Shown piece after piece: positions 5,890-63,999 of a DNA stretch of 64,000 nt (positions are counted from its first letter, which is position 1; each line of letters begins with the position of its first letter). The stretch lies in NCBI RefSeq assembly GCF_023204875.1, contig NZ_CP096247.1, positions 2,666,001-2,730,000 on the forward strand, in the 5' to 3' direction. Below the pieces are notes generated by a model that saw only the letters and a program-made list of their open reading frames with translations, was not told the DNA's origin and searched no databases. The DNA is from Prevotella sp. E15-22. Lineage in GTDB: Bacteria > Bacteroidota > Bacteroidia > Bacteroidales > Bacteroidaceae. Made by a program: the position numbers and the translations under genes.

Positions 5890-6495
5890 ATGATGGAAAT
5901 TAAAGGATTGGACTACAACACCCAACGGGAATCACTGTTGATGCCCGAATACGGACGTGAGATACAAAAGATGGTGGATTACGCCACCACACTGCCAACA
6001 AAAGAAGAACGTTTGCAGTGTGCCAAGAGTATTGTACGACTGATGGAGACCAAGGTGCCACAAATGCGCGAGAATGCCGATTTTCAGCAGACACTCTGGG
6101 ATCATCTCTATCTGATGAGCAACAAAGCCCTGGACATTGATTGGCCCTTTGACGTAAGTGGTGCTGAGAAATTCCATGCTAAGCCTGCGCCCATGCCTTT
6201 GCCCCAGGGTGGCATTCATCTGCGTCACTATGGCAAGTTGGTAAGCGAGTTGCTTGACCATCTGAAAGACATGCCTGATGGCGAAGAACGCGAGGAACTG
6301 ATTCGATTGACCGCCAACCAGATGAAGCGCGACCTCGTACAGTGGGGACACGGTTCCATGGACGATGAAAAGGTGGCCGACGATATGGCCCGTTTGACAG
6401 ACGGTGCCGTACAGCTGGACCTTCAGCATTTTATCTTCGAGCGCATTAACCAGCAGGAGCCTCAGCCTAAGCGCAATGGCAAAAAGCGCAAGTAA
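5890..6495 (+). CDS. DUF4290 family protein (conserved, function unknown)
   Basis: 201 residues, soluble, no signal peptide. The start GLDYNTQRESLLMPEYGREIQKMV is typical of DUF4290, a Bacteroidota-specific family usually found directly upstream of murA, as here. The C-terminus is strongly basic (KRNGKKRK). It begins 3 bp after tsaB (two consecutive ATGs at 5890 and 5893, either possible) and murA follows after 18 bp. Its place among tRNA-modification, cell-wall and isoprenoid genes says little about its job; I assign no function. Confidence 0.85.
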   Translation: MMEIKGLDYNTQRESLLMPEYGREIQKMVDYATTLPTKEERLQCAKSIVRLMETKVPQMRENADFQQTLWDHLYLMSNKALDIDWPFDVSGAEKFHAKPAPMPLPQGGIHLRHYGKLVSELLDHLKDMPDGEEREELIRLTANQMKRDLVQWGHGSMDDEKVADDMARLTDGAVQLDLQHFIFERINQQEPQPKRNGKKRK

Positions 6496-6513
6496 CTCTA
6501 ACACCTCTACGAT

Positions 6514-7848
6514 ATGGCAGCATTTATCATTGAGGGAGGACACCCTCTCAGCGGAACCATCGTACCTCAGGGCGCAAAGAACGAAGCCCTGCAGGTGATT
6601 TGTGCTACACTATTGACTAGTGACAAGGTGACAATCCACAATATTCCGCAAATCAGAGATGTAATGAACCTCATCCAATTACTCAAGGATGTTGGTGTAA
6701 AGGTTACCGAGGATTCCAGAAACACTGAGGATTGTGGCGTTTCTGGACTTACATGTACTTTTCAGGCAGACGAGTTGAACCTGGATTATCTGCAAAGCAA
6801 CGAATTTGTTCAGAAGTGTGCCCAACTGCGTGGTTCTGTCATGATGATTGGTCCGTTACTTGCTCGCATGGGAAAGGCAACGATTGCCAAGCCCGGTGGC
6901 GACAAGATTGGACGCCGCAGATTAGACACGCACTTCTTAGGTTTTGAACGCTTAGGCGCACAGTTCCATCATGTGGCAGAACGCGATGTTTACGAGATAC
7001 ATGCCCAACAGCTGAATGGTTGTTATATGCTTCTTGACGAGGCATCCGTTACTGGTACGGCCAATATCGTCATGGCAGCTGTGATGGCCAAGGGCACAAC
7101 CACTATTTACAACGCAGCATGCGAACCCTATCTGCAGCAACTATGCAAGATGCTTAACAAGATGGGAGCTCGTATCAGCGGCATTGCATCGAACCTCTTG
7201 ACCATTGAGGGTGTTGACCACCTGAATGGTACAGATCACACCATCCTGCCAGACATGATTGAGGTAGGATCGTTTATTGGCATGGCTGCTATGGTGGGAA
7301 ACGGCATTCGCATCAAGAACGTTTCCATCAAAGACCTGGGCATCATTCCAAACACTTTCCGTCGCATGGGTATCACCATCAAGGAAGAGGGCGATGATCT
7401 TTATATCCCCCACATGCCTCACTACGAGATACAGTCGTTTATTGATGGCACCATCATGACTCTGGCAGATGCACCTTGGCCAGGACTGACACCTGACCTA
7501 TTGTCAGTACTCATCACCGTGGCCACACAAGCCCGCGGTTCCGTATTGGTTCACCAGAAGATGTTCGAGAGTCGTCTGTTCTTCGTTGACAAGCTCATCG
7601 ATATGGGTGCACAGATTATCCTTTGTGACCCTCATCGTGCAGTGGTCGTTGGTCATGACCGTAAGTTGCAACTGCGTGGCGGGCGCATGTCAAGTCCTGA
7701 CATCCGTGCAGGAATAGCCCTGCTAATAGCAGCCATGAGCGCCAAGGGCACCAGTCGCATTGACAATATTGAGCAGATTGATCGTGGTTACGAGAATATA
7801 GAAGCTCGTCTGAACGCGCTCGGTGCAAAAATTGAAAGAATTAGCTAA
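6514..7848 (+). CDS. murA: UDP-N-acetylglucosamine 1-carboxyvinyltransferase
   Basis: 444 residues, close to family length. MurA catalyses the first committed step of peptidoglycan synthesis, transfer of enolpyruvate from PEP to UDP-GlcNAc. It has the N-terminal QGAKNEAL motif (Lys22, Asn23) and the active-site loop KPGGDKIGRRRLDTH. The loop residue that is Cys115 in the E. coli enzyme is Asp130 here (codon 6901-6903). This Cys-to-Asp form is known from other bacteria and is linked to natural fosfomycin insensitivity, because fosfomycin alkylates the cysteine. Cytoplasmic; co-directional with the genes before and after. Confidence 0.96.
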   Translation: MAAFIIEGGHPLSGTIVPQGAKNEALQVICATLLTSDKVTIHNIPQIRDVMNLIQLLKDVGVKVTEDSRNTEDCGVSGLTCTFQADELNLDYLQSNEFVQKCAQLRGSVMMIGPLLARMGKATIAKPGGDKIGRRRLDTHFLGFERLGAQFHHVAERDVYEIHAQQLNGCYMLLDEASVTGTANIVMAAVMAKGTTTIYNAACEPYLQQLCKMLNKMGARISGIASNLLTIEGVDHLNGTDHTILPDMIEVGSFIGMAAMVGNGIRIKNVSIKDLGIIPNTFRRMGITIKEEGDDLYIPHMPHYEIQSFIDGTIMTLADAPWPGLTPDLLSVLITVATQARGSVLVHQKMFESRLFFVDKLIDMGAQIILCDPHRAVVVGHDRKLQLRGGRMSSPDIRAGIALLIAAMSAKGTSRIDNIEQIDRGYENIEARLNALGAKIERIS

Positions 7849-53100: not shown

Positions 53101-53154
53101 TCACAATCTTGTTACGTCCCCATTACGTTGATATTACAATCCTGTTACAATTAC
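53100..53154 (-). promoter_or_regulatory. Five 11-bp-phased repeats, candidate PhoB-like binding site
   Basis: Reading the minus strand from 53150 the 7-bp half-sites are TTGTAAC, TTGTAAT, ACGTAAT, ACGTAAC and TTGTGAT, each separated by 4 bp (11-bp period). This is the geometry of the E. coli Pho box and of other head-to-tail sites bound by OmpR/PhoB regulators. The last unit abuts the -7 element of the Na/Pi cotransporter. Confidence 0.65.
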
Positions 53155-53184
53155 AGTCTTTCGTTGATAATCTCTTCCATTTTC

Positions 53185-53215
53185 TTTGGTCAGTCAATTT
53201 TTTTTCGTACCTTTG
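53185..53215 (+). promoter_or_regulatory. Complete Bacteroidota promoter for the secreted esterase gene
   Basis: TTTG (53185-53188), 19 nt spacer, TACCTTTG (53208-53215) then C; 56 bp upstream of the ATG. Confidence 0.8.
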
Positions 53216-53271
53216 CGCTCGCTCTTTGCGAGCAAGCAAGTTATTCATCCATAAAAAATTATTTTTTACCA

Positions 53272-55038
53272 ATGAAACGATTATTACTATCACTTATCGT
53301 TATCCTAACTGCGTTGCACGTCAGCGCCTACAAGAAACAGTCCATAGACATTACCGTCAACGGCAAGAGTAGAAACATGGTGGTATTCACCCCCAACAGT
53401 CTGCCCGCCAACTCACCTCTCTTCATTGTGACGCACGGCATGAACCAGGACCCGGAATACCAGTATGGCTCCGACAAGATGTACGAGATGATCGACACGG
53501 CCAAGTTTGTCATTGCCTATCTGCGCAGCAACGGCAGCACTTGGGACACTGGCGGCACGGGCGACCAGCTCTTTGTGAGCAAGACCATCGACGAGATGTA
53601 CACACGCTATGAGATCAACAAGGACCGTGTCTACTGGTCGGGCTTCTCCATGGGTTCCATGCTCATTCACCATTGCATTGCCAACATGCAGAACAAGATT
53701 GCAGCCTTTGCCCCCACCAGCGGCATCCAGTTCTCTGAGTCGCCCTGGAACAACTGCTCAAAGCCCGTCAACCTGCTGGAATGTATTGCCTACGGCGACG
53801 ATGTGTTTGGCTACGAGAAATATGGCATCCACGCCTATATCGAGAACTATGCCAAGCACGACAAGCATACCAGCTACTCAAAGACCACAGGCTATAAGCC
53901 CATCAGCAGCTCCTGGTACGACGGCGACCTGGAGAAATGGACGGGCGGCCCCAATGGTGGCGAGGTGTGGCTCTATTCTTATAATAATGGCGGCCACTGG
54001 CCCATGGACCTGAACCGCCACCTCATCTGGAACTTCTGCAAGCGCTTCACGCTGAACCAGCCCAACGCGCACTTCACCCAGCCTGCCGGCGAAACCACCA
54101 ACCTCTGCATGGCACCCAAGGACAAAGCCACATTCCCTGACATCAGCATCGCTGCCACGGCCAAGGCTAGGAGCGCCACCGTCAAGAAGGTGACCTTCTA
54201 CGATGGCAAGACGTTCCTCGACTCACTGACGGCCGCTCCCTATCAGGCATCAGTCATTCAGCCCAAGAGTGGCAAGCACAACCTCATTGCCGAGGTGACC
54301 GACAGCAAGGGCCGTACTGGCAGTTCCTCTTGCCTGGTGAACAACGTCCTCACACAGACCTCCTACTCGCTGGTGCAGCGCTTCAAGACCGAGGGTTCCG
54401 TGCCACAAGACTGGTATGCCAGCGATGGCTCCACCAAGCGCATTGGTGGCGGACTGCCAGCCACCAGCGGCCCCCGACTTCTGCGTTTCACAAACAGCAC
54501 ACGTGCCTTCCAGTATGGCCTGCTCGTCCAAAACGCCACTGGCAAGGAGAAAGCTGCATGGGCCAAGTTTGGCACCAGCGAAGGTCGCTCCTCTCTCTAT
54601 CTGCATGCCGGCCATTATATAATAAGGTATAAGGTGTGCAACTGGAACCGCCCCTCGTTCTCGCCCATCACCGTGGCCATCGAAACAGCCGAGGGTGAGG
54701 AAACAGCCTCAACCACCTATACGCCCAACGTCAACATTGGCAACAACGTGGCCAACAAGTTTACAGGCGTCACCCTCCAGTCGTTCGAGTTCGACATCAC
54801 CAAGTCGGGCTACTACGTCATCGCCTTCTATGCCGATGCCGCCCGCAATGCCGACTTCGTGGTGGGCACCATCAACATCCAGGCCATGAGCTTCGACACC
54901 ACTGGCATCACCGATGTCACCAAGTCGAACAGCCCTGCCCCCACCCGCATCTACGACCTCAGCGGCCGTCGCGTGGCCAACAAACAGCTGAAGCCAGGCC
55001 TTTATATTATTAATGGTCGTAAAACAGTGGTAAAATAA
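53272..55038 (+). CDS. Secreted PHB-depolymerase/feruloyl-esterase-like protein with CBM-like domain and T9SS-like tail
   Basis: 588 residues from the ATG at 53272 (MKRLLLSLIVIL); an in-frame extension to 53128 runs through the promoter. Signal peptide about 1-19. Esterase domain about 22-270: oxyanion region FIVTHGMNQD, nucleophile Ser126 in WSGFSMGSM and a His in NNGGHWP. About 275-355 is an Ig-like region (VKKVTFYDGKTF), about 365-535 a jelly-roll-like module, and the last about 70 residues end with RIYDLSGRRVANKQLKPG...NGRKTVVK, typical of Por/T9SS-type sorting tails. Likely acts outside the cell on plant or polymer esters; the exact substrate is unknown. Confidence 0.82.
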   Translation: MKRLLLSLIVILTALHVSAYKKQSIDITVNGKSRNMVVFTPNSLPANSPLFIVTHGMNQDPEYQYGSDKMYEMIDTAKFVIAYLRSNGSTWDTGGTGDQLFVSKTIDEMYTRYEINKDRVYWSGFSMGSMLIHHCIANMQNKIAAFAPTSGIQFSESPWNNCSKPVNLLECIAYGDDVFGYEKYGIHAYIENYAKHDKHTSYSKTTGYKPISSSWYDGDLEKWTGGPNGGEVWLYSYNNGGHWPMDLNRHLIWNFCKRFTLNQPNAHFTQPAGETTNLCMAPKDKATFPDISIAATAKARSATVKKVTFYDGKTFLDSLTAAPYQASVIQPKSGKHNLIAEVTDSKGRTGSSSCLVNNVLTQTSYSLVQRFKTEGSVPQDWYASDGSTKRIGGGLPATSGPRLLRFTNSTRAFQYGLLVQNATGKEKAAWAKFGTSEGRSSLYLHAGHYIIRYKVCNWNRPSFSPITVAIETAEGEETASTTYTPNVNIGNNVANKFTGVTLQSFEFDITKSGYYVIAFYADAARNADFVVGTINIQAMSFDTTGITDVTKSNSPAPTRIYDLSGRRVANKQLKPGLYIINGRKTVVK

Positions 55039-55787: not shown

Positions 55788-58700
55788 CTACTTAATTACA
55801 ACCTTACGACCGTTGACCACATAGACACCCTTCTTCGTGGGTTTGCCTTCCAGTTTGCGGCCCTTCATGTCGTACCATACGCTGTTGGCGTCAACCTTGG
55901 CACTGTTAATGCCCGTGATCACCTCAACAGCATCCTTTGCATCCTGAACAGCCTTCTTCAGTGCCTCGACAGCATCGTCTACGGCCTTCTGTGTGGCAGC
56001 CTCATCGGCCTGCACACCCTTGGCGGCATTGATCACCTCGAGCAGTGTGGCAGCAACGTCGGCATAGTCGGCCTTGATGCTCTCATAGTAGTCAGCAGCA
56101 TCCGTGATGGCAGCGTCGAGTGCAGTCTTGTCGGCCACGATGGTGAACTGAGCCTTCAGCTCACCCTTGAAGTTGCCCTTACCAGTCACGGTGACGGTAT
56201 AGGTGCCCACCTCAGTAGCCTTGTTGCCACTTACCTCATAGCCTTCCTCAGGAACAACCAGTGTGCCAGCGCTCACGCTTACCACCTGAGCCGTCTGCTC
56301 CTGCTGGTTGTAAACGAACTTAGTGGCAGCCAACTCGAAGGCAGTAATCTCAGCCTGGGCGATGGTCACCTTCAGGATCTGAGCCTCCACATCGTTGTGG
56401 TTCTGATCGCCCATCACCTTGAAGTAAACGCTATACTCCTTGGCATCAGTGCCCTGAGGCAGCGTGGTCGAATAGTTCACATCGTCGAGTGCATACTGCA
56501 TCTCGCCGCCCTCTGCCGAGCCGGCAGCAATCAGGGTCTGAGCCTGAGCCGTGTAGATCAAGCCTAACTTCACCGTAGGCGCCGTCATGGTGACGTCGGC
56601 CTTCTTGATGGTAAACTCAGCCGTCTTGGTGCCCACGTAGTTGCCCTTACCAGTAGCAGTCACCTTAGCCGTACCAGCGTTCACGTTGTTCTCGAAGGCG
56701 AGTGTATAGTCAGTATCTTCCACGAGCACCGTCTCGCCCACCTTCACAGTGACAGCAGGCTTCTTCTCAGTGCCGTCGTACACAAACTCAGCGGGATCGA
56801 GGGTCAGTGCGAACACAGCCTCAGCATCAGGAACGATGCCATACTGAGCCGTCACCTCACCCTTGAAGTTGCCCTTACCAGTGATGGTAGCCGTATAGAA
56901 GCCCACGTTCGTAGCCTTGTTGCCCGTTACCTCGTAACCGTCGGCAGGCACCACCAGGTTGCCGGCCATCACGCTGGCCACCTGTACCGTCTGCTCCTGC
57001 TGGTTGTACACCAGACTAGTCTCCACCAATGTGGCAGCAGTAATCTCAGCCTGGGCGATGGTCACCTTCAGGATCTGAGCCTCCACGTCGTTGTGGTTCT
57101 GATCGCCCACCACCTTGAAGTAAACGCTATACTCCTTGGCATCAGTGCCCTGAGGCAGCGTGGTCGAATAGTTCACATCGTCGAGTGCATACTGCATCTC
57201 GCCGCCCTCTGCCGAGCCGGCAGCAATCAGGGTCTGAGCCTGAGCCGTGTAGATCAAGCCCAACTTCACCGTAGGCGCCGTCATGGTGACGTCGGCCTTC
57301 TTAATGGTAAACTCAGCCGTCTTGGTGCCCACGTAGTTGCCCTTACCAGTAGCGGTCACAGTGGCCGTACCAGCGTTCACGTTGTTGGCATAAGCCAGGG
57401 TGTAGTCGGTATTCTCAACCAATACGGTCTCGCCATCCTTCACAATAACCTCAGGCCTCTTCTCCGTGCCGTCGTACACATACTCCGTAGGATTCAGCGT
57501 CAGGTCGAACAATACCGACTGGTCGGCCACGATGCTGAACTGAGCCGTTACGCTGCCCTTGAAGTTGCCCTTACCAGTGATGATAGCCGTGTAGTTGCCC
57601 ACGTTCGTGGCCTTGTTGCCAGTCACCTCGTAGCTGCCCTCAGGAACAGTAAGCGTGCCTGCACTTACGCTGGCCACCTGAGCCACCTGCTCCAACTGGT
57701 TGTACACCAGGTTAGTCTCCACCAGAGTGGCAGCCGTCAGTGTGGCCGGAATAATGGTCACATCGATGGTCTGAGCCTCCACATCGTTGTGGTTCTGGTC
57801 GCCCACCACCTTATAAGATACGGTATAGTCCTTGGCATCGGTGCCCTGAGGCAGAGCCGTAGCAAAGTTCTCGCCGTCAAGTGCATACTGCATCTCGCCG
57901 CCCTGCACAGTGCCGGCAGCAACCAGTGTCTGAGCCTGAGCCGTGTAGATCAAGCCTAACTTCACCGTAGGCGCCGTCATGGTGACGTCGGCCTTCTTGA
58001 TGGAAAACTCCACAGTCTTGGTGCAGTTATAGTTGCCCTTACCAGTGGCCGTCACGGTAGCCGTGCCAGCGTTCACGTTGTTGGCATAAGCCAGGGTATA
58101 GTCGGTGCCCTCAACCAGCACAGCGTCGCCATCCTTCACAGTGACAGCAGGCTTCTTCTCAGTGCCGTCGTACACAAACTCAGTGGGATCGAGTGTCAGT
58201 GCGAACACAGCCTCAGCATCAGGAACGATGCTCCACTGTGCCTGTGCCGTACCCTTGAAGTTGCCCTTACCAGTGACGGTGACGGTATAGGTGCCCACAT
58301 TCGTGGCCTTGTTGCCCGTTACCTCGTAGCTATCCTCAGGCACATCCAGGTTGCCAGCCTTCACGCTGGTCACCTTAGCCTCGTGCTCCTGCTGGTTGTA
58401 AACAAAGTTGGTGGCCTCCAGTGTAACAGCCGTCAGTGCAGCCTGAGCAATGGTAAACGTCGTCGTGGCCGTGCCCTGATAGTTGCCCACGCCAGTGGCA
58501 GTCACCTTAGCAGTGCCAGCATTCACGTTGTCCTCAAAGTCCAGGGTATAGTCGGTGCCCATCTTCATCAGGGTCTCGCCATCCTTCATCACCACATTGG
58601 GCACGAGAGGCTCACCCGTATAGACGGGCGAAGAAATCTGGGTAAACATGCCATCGGCCAGCGCCTTGGGTGCGATGATCAGCTCGCACCAGTCGGTATC

Positions 58701-59756
58701 GCCAAAGTAGTTATCGCCCTCGGTCATAGTGGCACGAATGGTCACCTTGCCAGCGCTCTTGATGGTCACCTCGCCAGTGGCAGCATCAACAGCAGCAATC
58801 TCGGGCTTGTCCGACGCGAACGTCAGCACGCCGTCGCCACGGGTGTTGGGTTTCAGTGTGAAGTTAGCATCGCCATAGGTCTTCTCGACCTCAGAAGGAT
58901 AGAACAGCACCAGACCCTCGGCCTTGATCACCTTAAACTCTACCTTCTTCTCGCCAGCATAGTTATCGCCGATGCCCTTGAAGGTGGCGGTGCCAGTGCC
59001 GGCATCGGTGTTGCCCAAGAAGGTCACAGTATAGTCCTTGTCTTTCACCAGAACGGTCTCGCCGTCCTTCACCTCGACATCAGGATTCAGAGCATGACCT
59101 GTGTAAACAGCATCGTCCACCGTGATGGTGATGTCCTCGTGGGTCAGCATCTTCTTGTACTTCACTGCAAACTCGGCCTTGGCGCGCTGCATCTCGAAGG
59201 TGTAGGTCTGGGCGCGAGTCACGGCATCCTCAGAAACAAAGGTCAGGTCAACATCCTGTAGCAGACCAAGGCCTGAAGTGCGGCGTTGTGGTGCGCGTGC
59301 CTGAGTGGCAATCCACTCGCCCGTAACTTTACCCACAACCCAGTTCTCGTTGGGCGTGATGGTCATTGTCACCAAGTCGCCTTCGTCGGCAGTCGTTACG
59401 GCATTATCGTCCACCTTGAAAGTTACAGTACCGTGAGCATTATCGTTCACGCTGAGATTGAATCCACTGGTTATTTTCATTACCAGGTGGAGTGTCGACT
59501 CTTTCTGGATGTTGTAGTCGGCCAGAGTTTTTTCGTTATCCAGCTCTTTGCCGGCAAAGATAAGTCTTTGGTCGGCCACAGGCATACCTTCCTTATTATT
59601 GATCAGTCCCTTCACCTGCAAGATAGTGTTCGAAGGTTCCACGTCGAGTGTGATGGTCTTGCCCGTCAGCGTCTTGACGAAAATCTGCATGGCGCTCATA
59701 CTCACCACAATCGTGAGTAGCGCGAGCAGTGAAAATATCTTTTGTTTCATATTCAT
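55788..59756 (-). CDS. Secreted protein with N-terminal ubiquitin domain, Ig-like (MBG-type) repeats and T9SS-like tail
   Basis: 1322 residues (an alternative ATG at 59750 removes two). Signal peptide about 1-22, then an intact ubiquitin domain at 23-98, an InlB-B-like or related repeat segment at about 100-200, and from about 205 to 1190 a series of Ig-like modules of two recurring kinds ([16 protein letters not shown]...GTGKGNY-type and VYNQQEQ...[12 protein letters not shown]). Part of this is arranged as a 232-aa super-unit present about three times. An A/D/K-rich helical segment (about 1205-1280) follows, and the end is [17 protein letters not shown]...NGRKVVIK, a Por/T9SS-like tail. It is probably exported through the outer membrane and attached to or released from the surface. 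It is the last gene of a minus-strand cluster of secreted proteins. The function of the ubiquitin part is unknown. Confidence 0.9.
56341..57353 (-). repeat. Near-identical intragenic repeat copies, 696-bp period
   Basis: 56341-56657 and 57037-57353 (317 bp each) differ at four positions by my comparison. A third copy of the same super-unit starts 696 bp further (the CACCGTAGGC landmark occurs at 56571, 57267 and 57963). The period equals 232 codons, so copy number could change without a frameshift. Confidence 0.85.
59463..59690 (-). other. Ubiquitin-like domain of the 1322-aa secreted protein
   Basis: Residues 23-98 align to human ubiquitin without gaps, and by my residue count 53 of 76 are identical (sequence of ubiquitin recalled, not searched). 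It begins [20 protein letters not shown] and keeps the hydrophobic patch Leu8, Ile44, His68, Val70 (ubiquitin numbering), Phe4, and lysines 6, 11, 27, 33, 48 and 63; Lys29 is Leu. The end is VMKITSG instead of VLRLRGG, so the Gly-Gly tail needed for conjugation is gone and the chain continues. Secretion cleavage would leave the ubiquitin start at or within about two residues of the mature N-terminus. Confidence 0.92.
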
Positions 59757-59962: not shown

Positions 59963-61426
59963 TCACTTAACAACCACCTTTTGTCCATTCAGGATGTAAA
60001 CACCCTTCTTCGTAGGAGCATTAACCTTGCGGCCATCGATGGTGTACCAGCTATCATCCGTTGACTTCGTACGATCAGCATTTGTTATGCCCGTGGTCTC
60101 GTCGAAGACGATGTTGATAACACGTGCATTCAAGTTGCTGATGTTCAGCCATGCCTTGTTGGCAGCCACGGGGATGGCATACTTCACATAGACGAAGGCC
60201 TTGCCATTGAAGGCGTAGTTGGTCTGATCCTCATCGCTGGCGGCGATGGTGGTGGCAGTCAGCGTGCCGATGAAGCCGTCATAGACGTCGAGAGACAGGT
60301 TAGGCTCGGCATCGGCAGGAATCAGCAGGAAGGTCTTGGCCTCGTCACTGTTGTTATAGACCAGCAGCGGCGTGTTGCTTGGAGCGGTCTCGATGGCACT
60401 GCTCAGCACAGCCTTGTCGTTGTTGATGCTACTGATAGTGTAGAGCTCGGCATCGGCAGAAGAAATAGGATCAGCATAGAGCGGTTCATCCTTATAGAAG
60501 GTGGCGAACTCGCCGGCAGGCACCTCAACAGGATATCCCTGGAAGAGCACGAAGATGTTAGAATTGGCGGTCTCGCCATCGTAGGTAGAGCCAGTGGCAG
60601 CAGTAGCCTTGGCAATGTAGCGTCCGGGCACGAGGTCCTGGAAGGCGACGGGGTTGCCTACGGGCTGGTCATTGTCATCGATGGCATAGATGCTGACGGT
60701 GCAGTCAACGGACCCGCCGAGGTTGAGGAACATGAGGTCCTGGTTCTCAATGGCGTCGTGCACCTTAATCATAGCGATCATACCTGCAACGTCAGTATCG
60801 GCAGGCTCAAACTTACCGGGATTCTGCTCGCTCTTCTTCAGTCGGATGCGGTAGCCGTCGTTGCCGTCGCCCACCTTGGTGGTCATGCTGATAGCCATGT
60901 CGCGTACCAGCTCGTAGTCCACGTCCACGTCGAAGGTCTGCATCTCGAACGATGCCTCGGTCTTAGCCTCGTTGAGGGTCACGTCGACGTCGGGTTTATC
61001 GATGGTGAAGACGATGCTTTGGATACCGTAAACACTAGCCGTGAAGGCGACGCTTTCTGCCTCGCCAGTCCATGTCAGCGTATAAATGCCTTCCCAACAG
61101 TCAGGATCTATATCTGGATATGGCTGATAGCTACCGGTCTGTATCTTTTGCCAACCACTAATGTCTCCATAGGTGCAATTGACGATTTCAATCTTCGTGA
61201 ACTTGCCTTTATCAACAGAGAAGGTGGTGCTGCCGTCGTTATACAAGTTATCATAGTTATGGACCCTGTCGTTGCCTGGCGTAAGGGTAACGCCGTCCTT
61301 GGCAACAGTGCTATAGCCATTGAGGTCAGCCTGAGTAAACGTGACGGTCACCTCTTCGGCCCATGCTCCGCCGACTGCCGTGATGAGCAGTGCGAGCGTC
61401 ATTAGATATCTTGATATTGTTTTCAT
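59963..61426 (-). CDS. Secreted modular protein with T9SS-like tail, function unknown
   Basis: 487 residues. Signal peptide (about 1-23; MKTISRYLMTLALLITAVGG), then beta-rich sequence without a family I recognise, including SFEMQTFDVDVDYELVRD (about 155-172), a motif shared with neighbours, and a segment about 330-460 of the kind found in other Bacteroidetes surface proteins (NTPLLVYNNSDEAKTFLLIP). The C-terminus is DSWYTIDGRKVNAPTKKG...NGQKVVVK, a Por/T9SS-like tail. Its leader and first codons lie in a 93-bp repeat shared with the gene at 61483. It starts 56 bp after that gene's stop. Confidence 0.8.
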   Translation of the reverse strand: MKTISRYLMTLALLITAVGGAWAEEVTVTFTQADLNGYSTVAKDGVTLTPGNDRVHNYDNLYNDGSTTFSVDKGKFTKIEIVNCTYGDISGWQKIQTGSYQPYPDIDPDCWEGIYTLTWTGEAESVAFTASVYGIQSIVFTIDKPDVDVTLNEAKTEASFEMQTFDVDVDYELVRDMAISMTTKVGDGNDGYRIRLKKSEQNPGKFEPADTDVAGMIAMIKVHDAIENQDLMFLNLGGSVDCTVSIYAIDDNDQPVGNPVAFQDLVPGRYIAKATAATGSTYDGETANSNIFVLFQGYPVEVPAGEFATFYKDEPLYADPISSADAELYTISSINNDKAVLSSAIETAPSNTPLLVYNNSDEAKTFLLIPADAEPNLSLDVYDGFIGTLTATTIAASDEDQTNYAFNGKAFVYVKYAIPVAANKAWLNISNLNARVINIVFDETTGITNADRTKSTDDSWYTIDGRKVNAPTKKGVYILNGQKVVVK

Positions 61427-61480
61427 ATATTGTATTTCTTTATGTTGTTTATACCTTTTATATTATATACGCGCGAGAGG
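61388..61480. repeat. 93-bp repeat, copy 1 (gene leader plus signal-peptide start)
   Basis: Matches 62995-63087 with two mismatches by my comparison. It covers the intergenic leader, the start codon and the first 13 codons of the gene at 59963-61426. Confidence 0.9.
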
Positions 61481-61482
61481 GG

Positions 61483-63033
61483 TTAGAACGCGAGGCAGGC
61501 GCGAACGTAGCGTTCGCGGTCCCTACGGTCGTCGTACCAATTGCCGTCGCTGAAGTCGTAGACGCACATGCGGTCGGAACTGTACTCCGTAGACGACCAG
61601 TAGAGTTCCCGCTGCATATTCGTTCCGCCGACGCTGCTGAAGCCTTTGCGCAGGGAGGAGTAGCTGCCGGCAGCGGAAATCATGCTGTTCCACTCGTCCT
61701 CGCTGGCCAGCTTCCACGTGCCGCCGGTGAAGGCCGGCGTGTGGGCGGCGCAGGTTGTCTGGGCCGTGCTGTAGTTCATCTGGCCCTCATCGGTCAGCGC
61801 CAGTGCCAGGCCGTTGCTGCCGCTGACGTAGCAAATCTTGGCCACGGCGGTCACGCCCGTGGGTAGGCTGGCGTAGGCGTAGTTCTTGCCGTCGCTGCCG
61901 ATGACCTGTCCCACTTCGGGGTTGGTGATGTTGAGCGAAGGAGTCGCCGCTCCCTTCTTCGCCTCCACCTTGCGGAACTTGTAGCCCTGCTTAGCGTTGA
62001 TGGTGACTTTCGTTCCCATCTTCACGCCCTCGAGCTTGCCCTCGGTGACGGTGGCGGCGGCATCACCCACTTTCACGGTAGCCTTGCCGGCCTCGATGGT
62101 GTTGGCGTTGGCGGCGTTGAAGGTGATGTCGAACTTGTTGGGGAGTACGGTGACCTTGATGGGCTCAGCGCAGATCTCCGAGTCGTTGAAAGTGTTCTCG
62201 GCAGTGGCCTCCTGGCCGTCGGGAGTGTTGGCACCCTGGATGTAGTACCATATCAGGACGTCTGCACCCTCATCAGCAATGTTCTCGGCTGTGGGCACGG
62301 TGGCACTGAAGGCGCTGAGCTCGGGAGCCGTGGCCTGGTTGGTGCTCGTCACGGCGTACATCACGATGCCCTGCGGGTTCTCGGTCTTGCCCATCATGGC
62401 TACGGTACCGGCCTTGACGATGGCGTCGGTAGTTCCGGCGAAGATGCCCTCAATGGCTGTCGGCAGCTGATCCACATTCTCGACTTTGGCCCACTGAGCC
62501 ACAGGGGCGTAGATGGGAGCTATCTCCACGTCGTAGGCGGGCATCTCGAAGGAGCCGGTCTTGGTCGAGGCGTTCCACTCGACGGTGATGGGGGCTTCGG
62601 CGGTGCCGAAGGTGAATGTAATCACATCGGCCTTGATGTCGCAACCGCTCAGCGTGACGCTGGTGGTGGGCCCACCGCTCCACTCGTATGACTCTGTCGA
62701 GCTGTTGTAAGTCCAGCCAGCAACATTGAGTTCGTCGTCAGTTATGATTGCGATGCTGGCGAAGGGCTTGCCATTGCTGGTGAAGGTGATGGCGTCGTTG
62801 TTGCCAGCCTGCAGGGCCAGCGGCTCGCCGCTAGTCGTACTTTGATACACTTTGCCCGAGCCAGTGGCGGTGATGGTGATGTCGCCCACGGTGTGTGTGG
62901 TTACGTTTTCTTCCCATCCGGACCAGGTTTGTTTGTCCCAATAGACGGAGTTGGGGTCCGTGATTGCCCACGCGCCCGTGACTGCCGTGAGTAGCAGTGC
63001 GAGCGTCATTATATATCTTGATATTGTTTTCAT
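61483..63033 (-). CDS. Secreted protein with C-terminal C-type-lectin-like (DGR-variable-protein/FSMP-like) domain
   Basis: 516 residues. Signal peptide (about 1-23; MKTISRYIMTLALLLTAVTG), beta-rich modules with the TGSFEMPAYDVEIAPIYAP motif (about 159-177), a further repeat-like module (about 300-365), and a C-terminal domain from about 385 to the end with WKLASEDEWNSMISAAGS, LYWSSTEYSSDRMCVYDF and RYVRACLAF. This end matches the formylglycine-generating/C-type-lectin-like fold of the Fibrobacter-succinogenes-major-paralogous group, which includes the variable proteins of diversity-generating retroelements. No T9SS-like tail is present. No reverse transcriptase or template repeat was seen in this window. 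Confidence 0.8.
   Translation of the reverse strand: MKTISRYIMTLALLLTAVTGAWAITDPNSVYWDKQTWSGWEENVTTHTVGDITITATGSGKVYQSTTSGEPLALQAGNNDAITFTSNGKPFASIAIITDDELNVAGWTYNSSTESYEWSGGPTTSVTLSGCDIKADVITFTFGTAEAPITVEWNASTKTGSFEMPAYDVEIAPIYAPVAQWAKVENVDQLPTAIEGIFAGTTDAIVKAGTVAMMGKTENPQGIVMYAVTSTNQATAPELSAFSATVPTAENIADEGADVLIWYYIQGANTPDGQEATAENTFNDSEICAEPIKVTVLPNKFDITFNAANANTIEAGKATVKVGDAAATVTEGKLEGVKMGTKVTINAKQGYKFRKVEAKKGAATPSLNITNPEVGQVIGSDGKNYAYASLPTGVTAVAKICYVSGSNGLALALTDEGQMNYSTAQTTCAAHTPAFTGGTWKLASEDEWNSMISAAGSYSSLRKGFSSVGGTNMQRELYWSSTEYSSDRMCVYDFSDGNWYDDRRDRERYVRACLAF
61486..61599 (-). other. Candidate hypervariable 3' region of the C-type-lectin-like gene
   Basis: Codes from the Trp of YWSSTEYSSD to the C-terminal Phe. 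It is rich in GAC, CGC, TAC and AGC codons at the positions that vary in retroelement-diversified homologues (the SSDRM, SDGNWYDD and RRDRER stretches), the residues expected from adenine-directed change of AAC codons. It ends with the conserved VRxxLAF motif. Confidence 0.45.
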
Positions 63034-63087
63034 ATATTGTATTTCTTTATGTTGTTTATACCTTTTATATTATATACGCGCTAGAGG
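62995..63087. repeat. 93-bp repeat, copy 2
   Basis: Second copy of the leader/signal-peptide repeat (see 61388-61480). It covers the gap between the genes at 61483 and 63088, the start codon at 63033 and the first 13 codons. The spacers TATACCTTTTATATTATATAC are the same in both copies. Confidence 0.9.
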
Positions 63088-63999
63088 TTACCAAGTCCAT
63101 TCTGTTGGAGCCTTGCTGTTGTCCGTCGACAGGTAGCGATGGTCTTTATAAGTTTCCCATGCGCTGCCGTTCCAGCCGTATAAGGTGACGCTGCCCGATG
63201 CATCGATGGAAACGGCTTTACTATCTTCGGCTGCTTCAATATACACAGCACCGCCGTTTACCTCGAGCATGTCATATACAGCAGAAGAAGCAGAGGCTTT
63301 AGCCTTCACCGTGCCTCCGTTGATAGTGATTGTTGTTCCATTTCCGCCGAGGGGAGATTCATCAAATAAAATCACAGTGCCGCCAGCTGCTGCCTCGCCG
63401 ATGATTATATCCGCGTTTTGATCATATATACCTGCCAATCTGCTCGTGCCCTTCAGCTTTACATTCACAGTATAATTATCATCCTGAGCGGCTATAAAAC
63501 ACTTTGGGGCGTTTACATTGTCGAGCGTTACCTCATAGCCCTCGCCTTTGTACAGGATAGATATCTCATTATTTGTCGTACCCGTGAAAGTCACATCTTC
63601 AGTCACCTCATAAGAGGTTCCCGAATATGTCGAGAGGTCAACGATGTTGCCCTTCGCCTTCTTCTCCACCTTCATGCCGAGGATTTTCTTCGTGCCGTTG
63701 TACTTGGTGGTAACGGTGCTGCCCTCGGTGACGGTGTTGGCAGACTTGCCGTCCTCGTCGAACTGTACGCCTAATTCGCCAGCGGTCACGACGATGTTTG
63801 CCTTGTCGGCCAGAGCCTCCTTACCTAAGAAGATGTTGCTCTCGGCGAAGTACTCCACCTGCAGCTCGATGTCGTTGGCGGGCATCTTGGCGAGTGTCCA
63901 CAGCTTGCCGTCCTGCGATGTCAGGGGCCACTCGGTAATTTCGGTGGTGATGAAAAACTTATAATTTAATTTCAAGCCAAAGACTTGTTTTTTCGTCCA
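63088..63999 (-). CDS. Secreted surface protein, N-terminus outside window
   Basis: About 304 residues are visible; the frame is open to the right edge, so the start lies outside. It begins with an InlB-B-like end (KMPANDIELQVEY, about residue 38 of the visible part), resembling motifs in the neighbours, then a beta-helix-like or polymorphic-repeat region (VTFTGTTNNEISILYKGEGY, SPLGGNGTTITINGGTVKA). The last residues (SKAPTEWTW) lack a T9SS-like tail. Same strand as the three other cluster genes and 54 bp upstream of the next one. Function unknown. Confidence 0.7.
   Translation of the reverse strand, partial: WTKKQVFGLKLNYKFFITTEITEWPLTSQDGKLWTLAKMPANDIELQVEYFAESNIFLGKEALADKANIVVTAGELGVQFDEDGKSANTVTEGSTVTTKYNGTKKILGMKVEKKAKGNIVDLSTYSGTSYEVTEDVTFTGTTNNEISILYKGEGYEVTLDNVNAPKCFIAAQDDNYTVNVKLKGTSRLAGIYDQNADIIIGEAAAGGTVILFDESPLGGNGTTITINGGTVKAKASASSAVYDMLEVNGGAVYIEAAEDSKAVSIDASGSVTLYGWNGSAWETYKDHRYLSTDNSKAPTEWTW

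Follow-up and report, generated by a model that had tools for sequence, protein, structure and literature searches.

Ubiquitin is taught as an intracellular tag of eukaryotes, and BfUbb of Bacteroides fragilis as a bacterial oddity. As described in one published account, BfUbb has a signal peptide that is cut exactly at ubiquitin Met1 and no terminal glycines; a synthetic 76-aa BfUbb inhibited 13 out of 40 B. fragilis strains, and bovine ubiquitin (identical to human) gave no inhibition of the B. fragilis strains tested in that account (PMC5705921). BfUbb is also reported to block in vitro ubiquitination and to bind human E1 covalently (PMC3352274). The same account of BfUbb describes secreted ubiquitins of Globodera, a plant-parasitic nematode, with a 12-residue extension that is cleaved in the plant (PMC5705921). 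Plasmid pRUMAL01 of Ruminococcus albus 7 encodes a 'Ubiquitin family protein' (WP_013483628.1; the name comes from automatic annotation alone) with a signal-peptide-like start, one ubiquitin and then a body. Polymorphic toxin and contact-dependent inhibition proteins carry a C-terminal toxin, with an immunity gene, on conserved secreted bodies. The bacterial target of BfUbb was reportedly dealt with in a later report.

A secreted bacterial ubiquitin is already a known kind, through BfUbb, and the Ruminococcus relative has already been named automatically. In the open-access literature that we searched, neither a ubiquitin that serves surface proteins as an exchangeable tip nor its occurrence across phyla was described. 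Here we describe a putative tip of this kind in Prevotella sp. E15-22, encoded in a stretch of 64,000 nucleotides (the window). By published description it is like BfUbb in being a eukaryote-type ubiquitin in Bacteroidales, with a signal peptide running to Met1, no Gly-Gly end and a strain-patchy occurrence; but BfUbb, of 76 residues, is free and inhibits B. fragilis strains, whereas in E15-22 the ubiquitin forms the tip of a protein of 1,322 residues and appears to move between bodies, so that ORF 55788-59756 does not encode a free mature protein of the BfUbb type. The R. albus 7 protein has the same layout, but its host is Gram-positive and its body is different. Globodera, likened here by its description (PMC5705921), also combines a signal peptide with a ubiquitin that has a C-terminal extension and acts outside its producer, but its gene is eukaryotic and its extension short and cleaved. 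The polymorphic toxins share the exchangeable end module on secreted bodies; in E15-22, however, the module is N-terminal, and no Pfam toxin domain was found in the protein.

The ubiquitin domain and the protein behind it

The features of the gene are as follows.

55788..59756, minus strand: ubiquitin-tipped repeat protein, 1,322 aa (open reading frame; coordinates include the stop codon)
59691..59756, minus strand: predicted signal peptide (residues 1-22) whose last residues, S-M-S-A, precede ubiquitin Met1 (from sequence; same layout in relatives)
59463..59690, minus strand: ubiquitin domain, residues 23-98, without Gly-Gly end (PF00240; 53/76 identity; AlphaFold against 1ubq)
55791..59462, minus strand: body, residues 99-1322, MBG/Ig-like repeats (MBG_3 below cut-off; the body also occurs ubiquitin-free in relatives)
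55791..55919, minus strand: C-terminal tail, also seen on further secreted proteins encoded in the genome (40% to the esterase tail of 53128-55038, E 7.7e-4)

An initial annotation had placed a ubiquitin here with 53 of 76 positions identical to human ubiquitin, and both coordinates and count are exact; the alignment is gap-free. In a Pfam search residues 23-98 match PF00240 at 88.3 bits (E 2.7e-25; cut-off 25.4), and they are the sole PF00240 match in the genome (E 9.4e-27); at such scores a chance match is excluded. The Ile44 patch is retained, as had been claimed (L8, I44, H68 and V70 of human ubiquitin are all present), and so are six of the seven lysines (K6, K11, K27, K33, K48 and K63; K29 is replaced by Leu). 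The Gly-Gly end is indeed replaced: positions 71-76 are M-K-I-T-S-G against L-R-L-R-G-G in human ubiquitin, and the chain continues past the Ser-Gly at 75-76, so the domain lacks the C-terminal Gly-Gly of a conjugatable ubiquitin.

An AlphaFold model of residues 23-290, with 12 aligned sequences as input, has a mean pLDDT of 71.9 and a pTM of 0.51; over the ubiquitin part the ten-residue blocks reach 85-97 for the first 70 residues. This predicted model has the beta-grasp ubiquitin fold, matching 1ubq with an rmsd of 1.1 over 76 columns and a TM of 0.95 on the target. The PF00240 score and the fold match together point to a genuine homologue of ubiquitin and away from other beta-grasp families.

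Signal peptides were judged from sequence and a simple hydrophobicity script. The one predicted in the initial annotation was found again, its predicted end falling at ubiquitin Met1 as in BfUbb, and the layout is repeated in relatives. The fusion to a large repeat protein also holds, with 1,224 residues C-terminal to the domain. For two further claims only a part stood. The body is indeed made of repeats, but as Ig-like repeats they have only a sub-cut-off match to MBG_3 (16.6 bits, cut-off 25). The proposed T9SS-like tail resembles the tails of other secreted proteins, and the translocon gene SprA is present in the genome (SprA_N 688 bits), but the tail had no match to the TIGR04183/NCBIfam T9SS model (E up to 0.1). 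No T9SS sorting domain was matched by NCBIfam in ten related cluster proteins either (E up to 1). The esterase-like protein at 53128-55038 (plus strand) is secreted, with a PHB depolymerase-type match below cut-offs and a Big_7 domain; its own tail matches TIGR04183 only below the cut-off.

Bodies with and without ubiquitin in a Prevotella gene cluster

ORF 55788-59756 closes a row of six genes that run in one direction and have signal-peptide-like starts; the row extends from 55791 to 68033. Its neighbours are listed here (G numbers denote genomes).

59963..61426, minus strand: cluster neighbour with plain signal peptide; its body (residues 117-487) is ubiquitin-tipped in G051 and G285 (locus comparison)
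61483..63033, minus strand: cluster neighbour with plain signal peptide and sub-threshold Lcl_C match (Pfam and locus comparison)
63088..63999, minus strand: co-directional cluster member, reaching 64305, outside the window; after it come two more, as far as 68033

Nearly identical DNA lies ahead of two cluster genes (~61430-61485 and 63037-63092), perhaps a shared leader or promoter.

We compared 18 loci from 17 carrier genomes. Nine ubiquitin genes (from eight genomes) are found on three bodies of this one cluster: the MBG-repeat body in E15-22 and in the second gene of G337; the 59963-61426-type body in G051 and G285; and the 61483-63033-type body (from residue 149 or 159) in G337, G325, G961, G264 and G246 (the last cut by a contig end). 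Genes of the same cluster also occur with plain signal peptides: the other two cluster genes of G325, G337 and G961 (in part for the MBG gene of G961 and G337), the MBG gene of G051 and both neighbours in E15-22. Homology of the bodies starts 2-4 residues past ubiquitin in G325, G961 and G264, and the first 14 residues of the signal peptide of ORF 55788-59756 are those of the plain MBG gene in G325. The other nine loci (G001, G034, G039, G176, G255, G712, G898, G934 and G1082) have other or unmatched bodies. Judged from these alignments, together with the substitution pattern given below, ubiquitin acts like an N-terminal tip that can be exchanged and that purifying selection maintains.

PF00240 matches were found in 6 out of 149 relatives, 15 out of 398 genomes of the same genus, 7 out of 399 of the family and 5 out of 393 of the order (the draws overlap, and each count includes E15-22 itself). 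Some carriers are doubtful: G115 and G1114 (28-29 bits), and G660, G561 and G1035 (below cut-off). In G157, also of the genus, a diverged domain (33.7 bits) begins elsewhere than at a Met following the signal peptide. The stretches in G115 and G660 (loci L006 and L118) are weak, diverged and ubiquitin-like, within large repeat proteins. G013 and G022, nearest by the adjacent esterase gene, showed no ubiquitin match beside the esterase in the neighbouring stretches examined. As to the initial annotation, the signal-peptide-ubiquitin start is present in other related genomes, and the idea of a singular fusion has to be given up: the same start is seen in many phyla and on different Prevotella bodies.

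Ubiquitin-tipped proteins outside Prevotella

A protein search with residues 1-100 gave 1,886 matches, and the names seen among the 120 listed were those of eukaryotes, mostly poly-ubiquitins; the bacterial set was therefore taken from DNA scans, in which four ubiquitin domains of Prevotella were run against named genomes. A relative is encoded by 303 of the 379 stretches that fitted the patterns; we analysed the best 80 of the 303 (a non-random sample, and the patterns favour an intact N-terminus). Among these 80, Met1 stands directly behind a signal-peptide-like stretch in 71 loci (70 by script and L025 by eye). The 72 script-positive rows have Ala at -1 in 62 cases and at -3 in 49, and Gly-Gly at 75-76 is retained in eight of them, so that in the sequences sampled the dead-end C-terminus is not universal in the class. 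Two of these eight are stand-alone ubiquitins that end at the intact Gly-Gly, each behind a signal-peptide-like stretch: one in Dyella sp. OK004 (L042, 5905-6228), identical to human at 75 of 76 positions, and one in Sphingomonas canadensis (L029, 5938-6228).

The carriers include isolates (Ruminococcus albus 8 and KH2T6, Xylanibacter ruminicola Ga6B6, Dyella sp. OK004 and Paracidovorax valerianellae) and the complete genome of Verrucomicrobia IMCC26134. Domains of the class are often near-human in sequence; those of Prevotella are among the most diverged (53-57 of 76 positions identical to human). Viral contigs account for 13 loci: some encode a signal peptide and ubiquitin, others lack the signal peptide or have more than one ubiquitin. 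Phage records had no ubiquitin match, and plasmid records had three, of which one is good (R. albus 7). Pseudoalteromonas plasmids NZ_CP077771.1 and CP076682.1 contain weak, diverged ubiquitin-like stretches within large repeat proteins.

Nine of the 80 loci have no clear signal peptide. Six (L038, L046, L052, L057, L062 and L081: bacterial-named, with ubiquitin in tandem or without a signal peptide) resemble eukaryotic or poly-ubiquitin contigs and are likely contamination; L047 retains the end of a signal peptide, with the reading frame broken 12 residues upstream; two more, L027 and L045, are ambiguous. Such contigs could suggest that the E15-22 gene itself is eukaryotic contamination or an assembly error, which we regard as most improbable: the E15-22 genome is one contig and 99.95% complete, its gene lies in a bacterial cluster found in other genomes, and the circular R. 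albus 7 plasmid has an annotated gene of the same layout. The initial annotation had named an assembly artefact as one thing that would overturn it; the one-contig genome and the same start in other genomes make this unlikely.

Pfam was run on 40 proteins in four batches, picked after inspecting protein ends (the variety found is informative, the proportions are not), and PF00240 was above cut-off and N-terminal in all 40. Behind the ubiquitin we observed autotransporter barrels (nine out of ten proteins of the first batch), IPTL-CTERM (L030 and L094), SLH (L066, L072, L096, L098 and L101), Por_Secre_tail (L060) and other modules: SdrD_B, Listeria-Bacteroides/InlB, MBG, cadherin-like, FGE-sulfatase and beta-helix. 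If these anchors act as their families do, the N-terminal ubiquitin would be the outer tip in each.

Outside Prevotella, 13 out of 65 rows have a second ORF in their locus with the body in common; pairs of ubiquitin genes (L048 and L086) make up four of the 13, and nine remain, including R. albus 7. The paired loci, in Verrucomicrobia IMCC26134 (L086) and Clostridia RGIG8016 (L048), each have two neighbouring ubiquitin-tipped genes with related bodies. On pRUMAL01 (L128) the ubiquitin-tipped gene at 5923-6663 is beside a ubiquitin-free ORF with the same body.

These distributions bear on a rival reading, in which the E15-22 domain would be a tethered antibacterial tip acting on competing Bacteroidales, by contact or after release. 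This is the main rival, and no other has so near a precedent in experiment: BfUbb is of the same order, is cut at Met1, has no terminal glycines and inhibits 13 out of 40 B. fragilis strains by its published account (PMC5705921). The gene is also patchy like that of BfUbb (15 out of 398 genomes of the genus), and tip exchange within a cluster is a habit of variable interference proteins. The class, however, is far wider than Bacteroidales and often near-human, while bovine ubiquitin was inactive in that account (PMC5705921), and the E15-22 ubiquitin is fused to 1,224 residues where BfUbb is free. We consider an antibacterial tip rather unlikely.

Sequence variation and the possible role of the tip

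Variation was examined in 15 core Prevotella domains (four more diverged Prevotella-type rows were excluded), with face residue sets as commonly described, fixed after the sequences had been seen. The share of positions identical to human ubiquitin is highest at buried residues (0.96) and in the Phe4 patch (0.95), lower at L8/I44/H68/V70 (0.85) and lowest on the helix-and-loop back face (0.34). L8, I44 and H68 are retained in 13-14 of the 15 domains and V70 in 11 (Leu or Ile in the rest). Compared with all other exposed sites, the Ile44 face showed no significant extra conservation in these 15 domains (p 0.106); against the back face alone, with these post hoc residue sets, p is 0.0003. The E15-22 domain itself differs from human ubiquitin at 15 out of 20 back-face, 2 out of 11 Ile44-face and 0 out of 14 buried positions. 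The median pN/pS is 0.32 (71 out of 105 pairs were in the usable range), with a value above 1 in one close pair (L007 and L008). By these substitution patterns, the domain is kept by selection and varies on one side.

Trees of the ubiquitin domain have 72 columns, too few to count transfers or to find their source. In the first (118 rows) the Prevotella rows require five label changes. In the second, with 12 of the 118 rows removed (indels, long branches and duplicates), a branch supported at 79 separates the 15 core Prevotella rows from the rest, and the 14 without L013 have support 0; a single group of all bacterial rows is neither shown nor rejected (p-AU 0.228).

Best kept buried residues, an Ile44 face that is not singled out and unrelated bodies would all suit a ubiquitin that serves as a stable, fast-folding N-terminal cap or spacer, aiding folding or protease resistance with no partner. 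But surface residues such as the Phe4 patch and L8, I44 and H68 are kept while another side changes freely, other stable folds would do as well, and there are cluster genes that lack ubiquitin; a mere cap seems to us unlikely.

We tentatively prefer an outward-facing tip that would offer a decoy ligand to the ubiquitin-binding proteins of protists or hosts. Gly-Gly is needed both for attachment to substrates and for cleavage by deubiquitinases. With this end lost, the domain would be neither conjugated nor cut off, and would stay a fixed ligand. It would sit outside the cell as an exchangeable tip, where it may bind eukaryotic ubiquitin-binding proteins. Signal peptidase would leave the native Met1, as described for BfUbb (PMC5705921). 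A search for ubiquitin-conjugating enzymes and deubiquitinases found no match in the E15-22 genome, nor in control genomes, so that the absence carries no weight. The initial annotation had proposed mimicry toward host or protozoan proteins: the homology, the lost end and the fusion are borne out, and the mimicry is a tentative reading.

The recurrence of the same start on unrelated C-terminal parts in many phyla, the exchange of tips and purifying selection all argue for the decoy. That its target is eukaryotic rather than bacterial is the least certain step. Protozoa are common in ruminant stomachs and in cattle, and such sources are named in six of the 80 record titles, which favours a eukaryotic target. 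So do the published accounts of human-type ubiquitin being inactive on the B. fragilis strains tested (PMC5705921) and of BfUbb inhibiting ubiquitination and binding human E1 (PMC3352274). Against the decoy, the Ile44 face is no better kept than other exposed residues, few domains are further from human ubiquitin than those of Prevotella, Gly-Gly is kept in 8 out of 72 script-positive rows, pN/pS exceeds 1 in the pair L007 and L008, and the closest characterised relative, BfUbb, acts on bacteria by its published description (PMC5705921). BfUbb, also without Gly-Gly, was reported to bind E1, which makes it less certain that the domain would be unusable by E1 (PMC3352274). The precedent that the initial annotation had seen in BfUbb, a secreted Bacteroidales ubiquitin without Gly-Gly, is supported by the published accounts (PMC3352274, PMC5705921).

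It is conceivable, if doubtful, that bacteria and archaea of many phyla display a eukaryotic ubiquitin, starting at its native Met1, at the outer end of surface proteins with unrelated anchors, as an exchangeable ligand that engages ubiquitin receptors of the protists and animals around them. A recurrent ubiquitin tip that moves between bodies suggests a general extracellular use of ubiquitin by bacteria; if this is true, ubiquitin display would be a common language of microbes and eukaryotes outside the cell.
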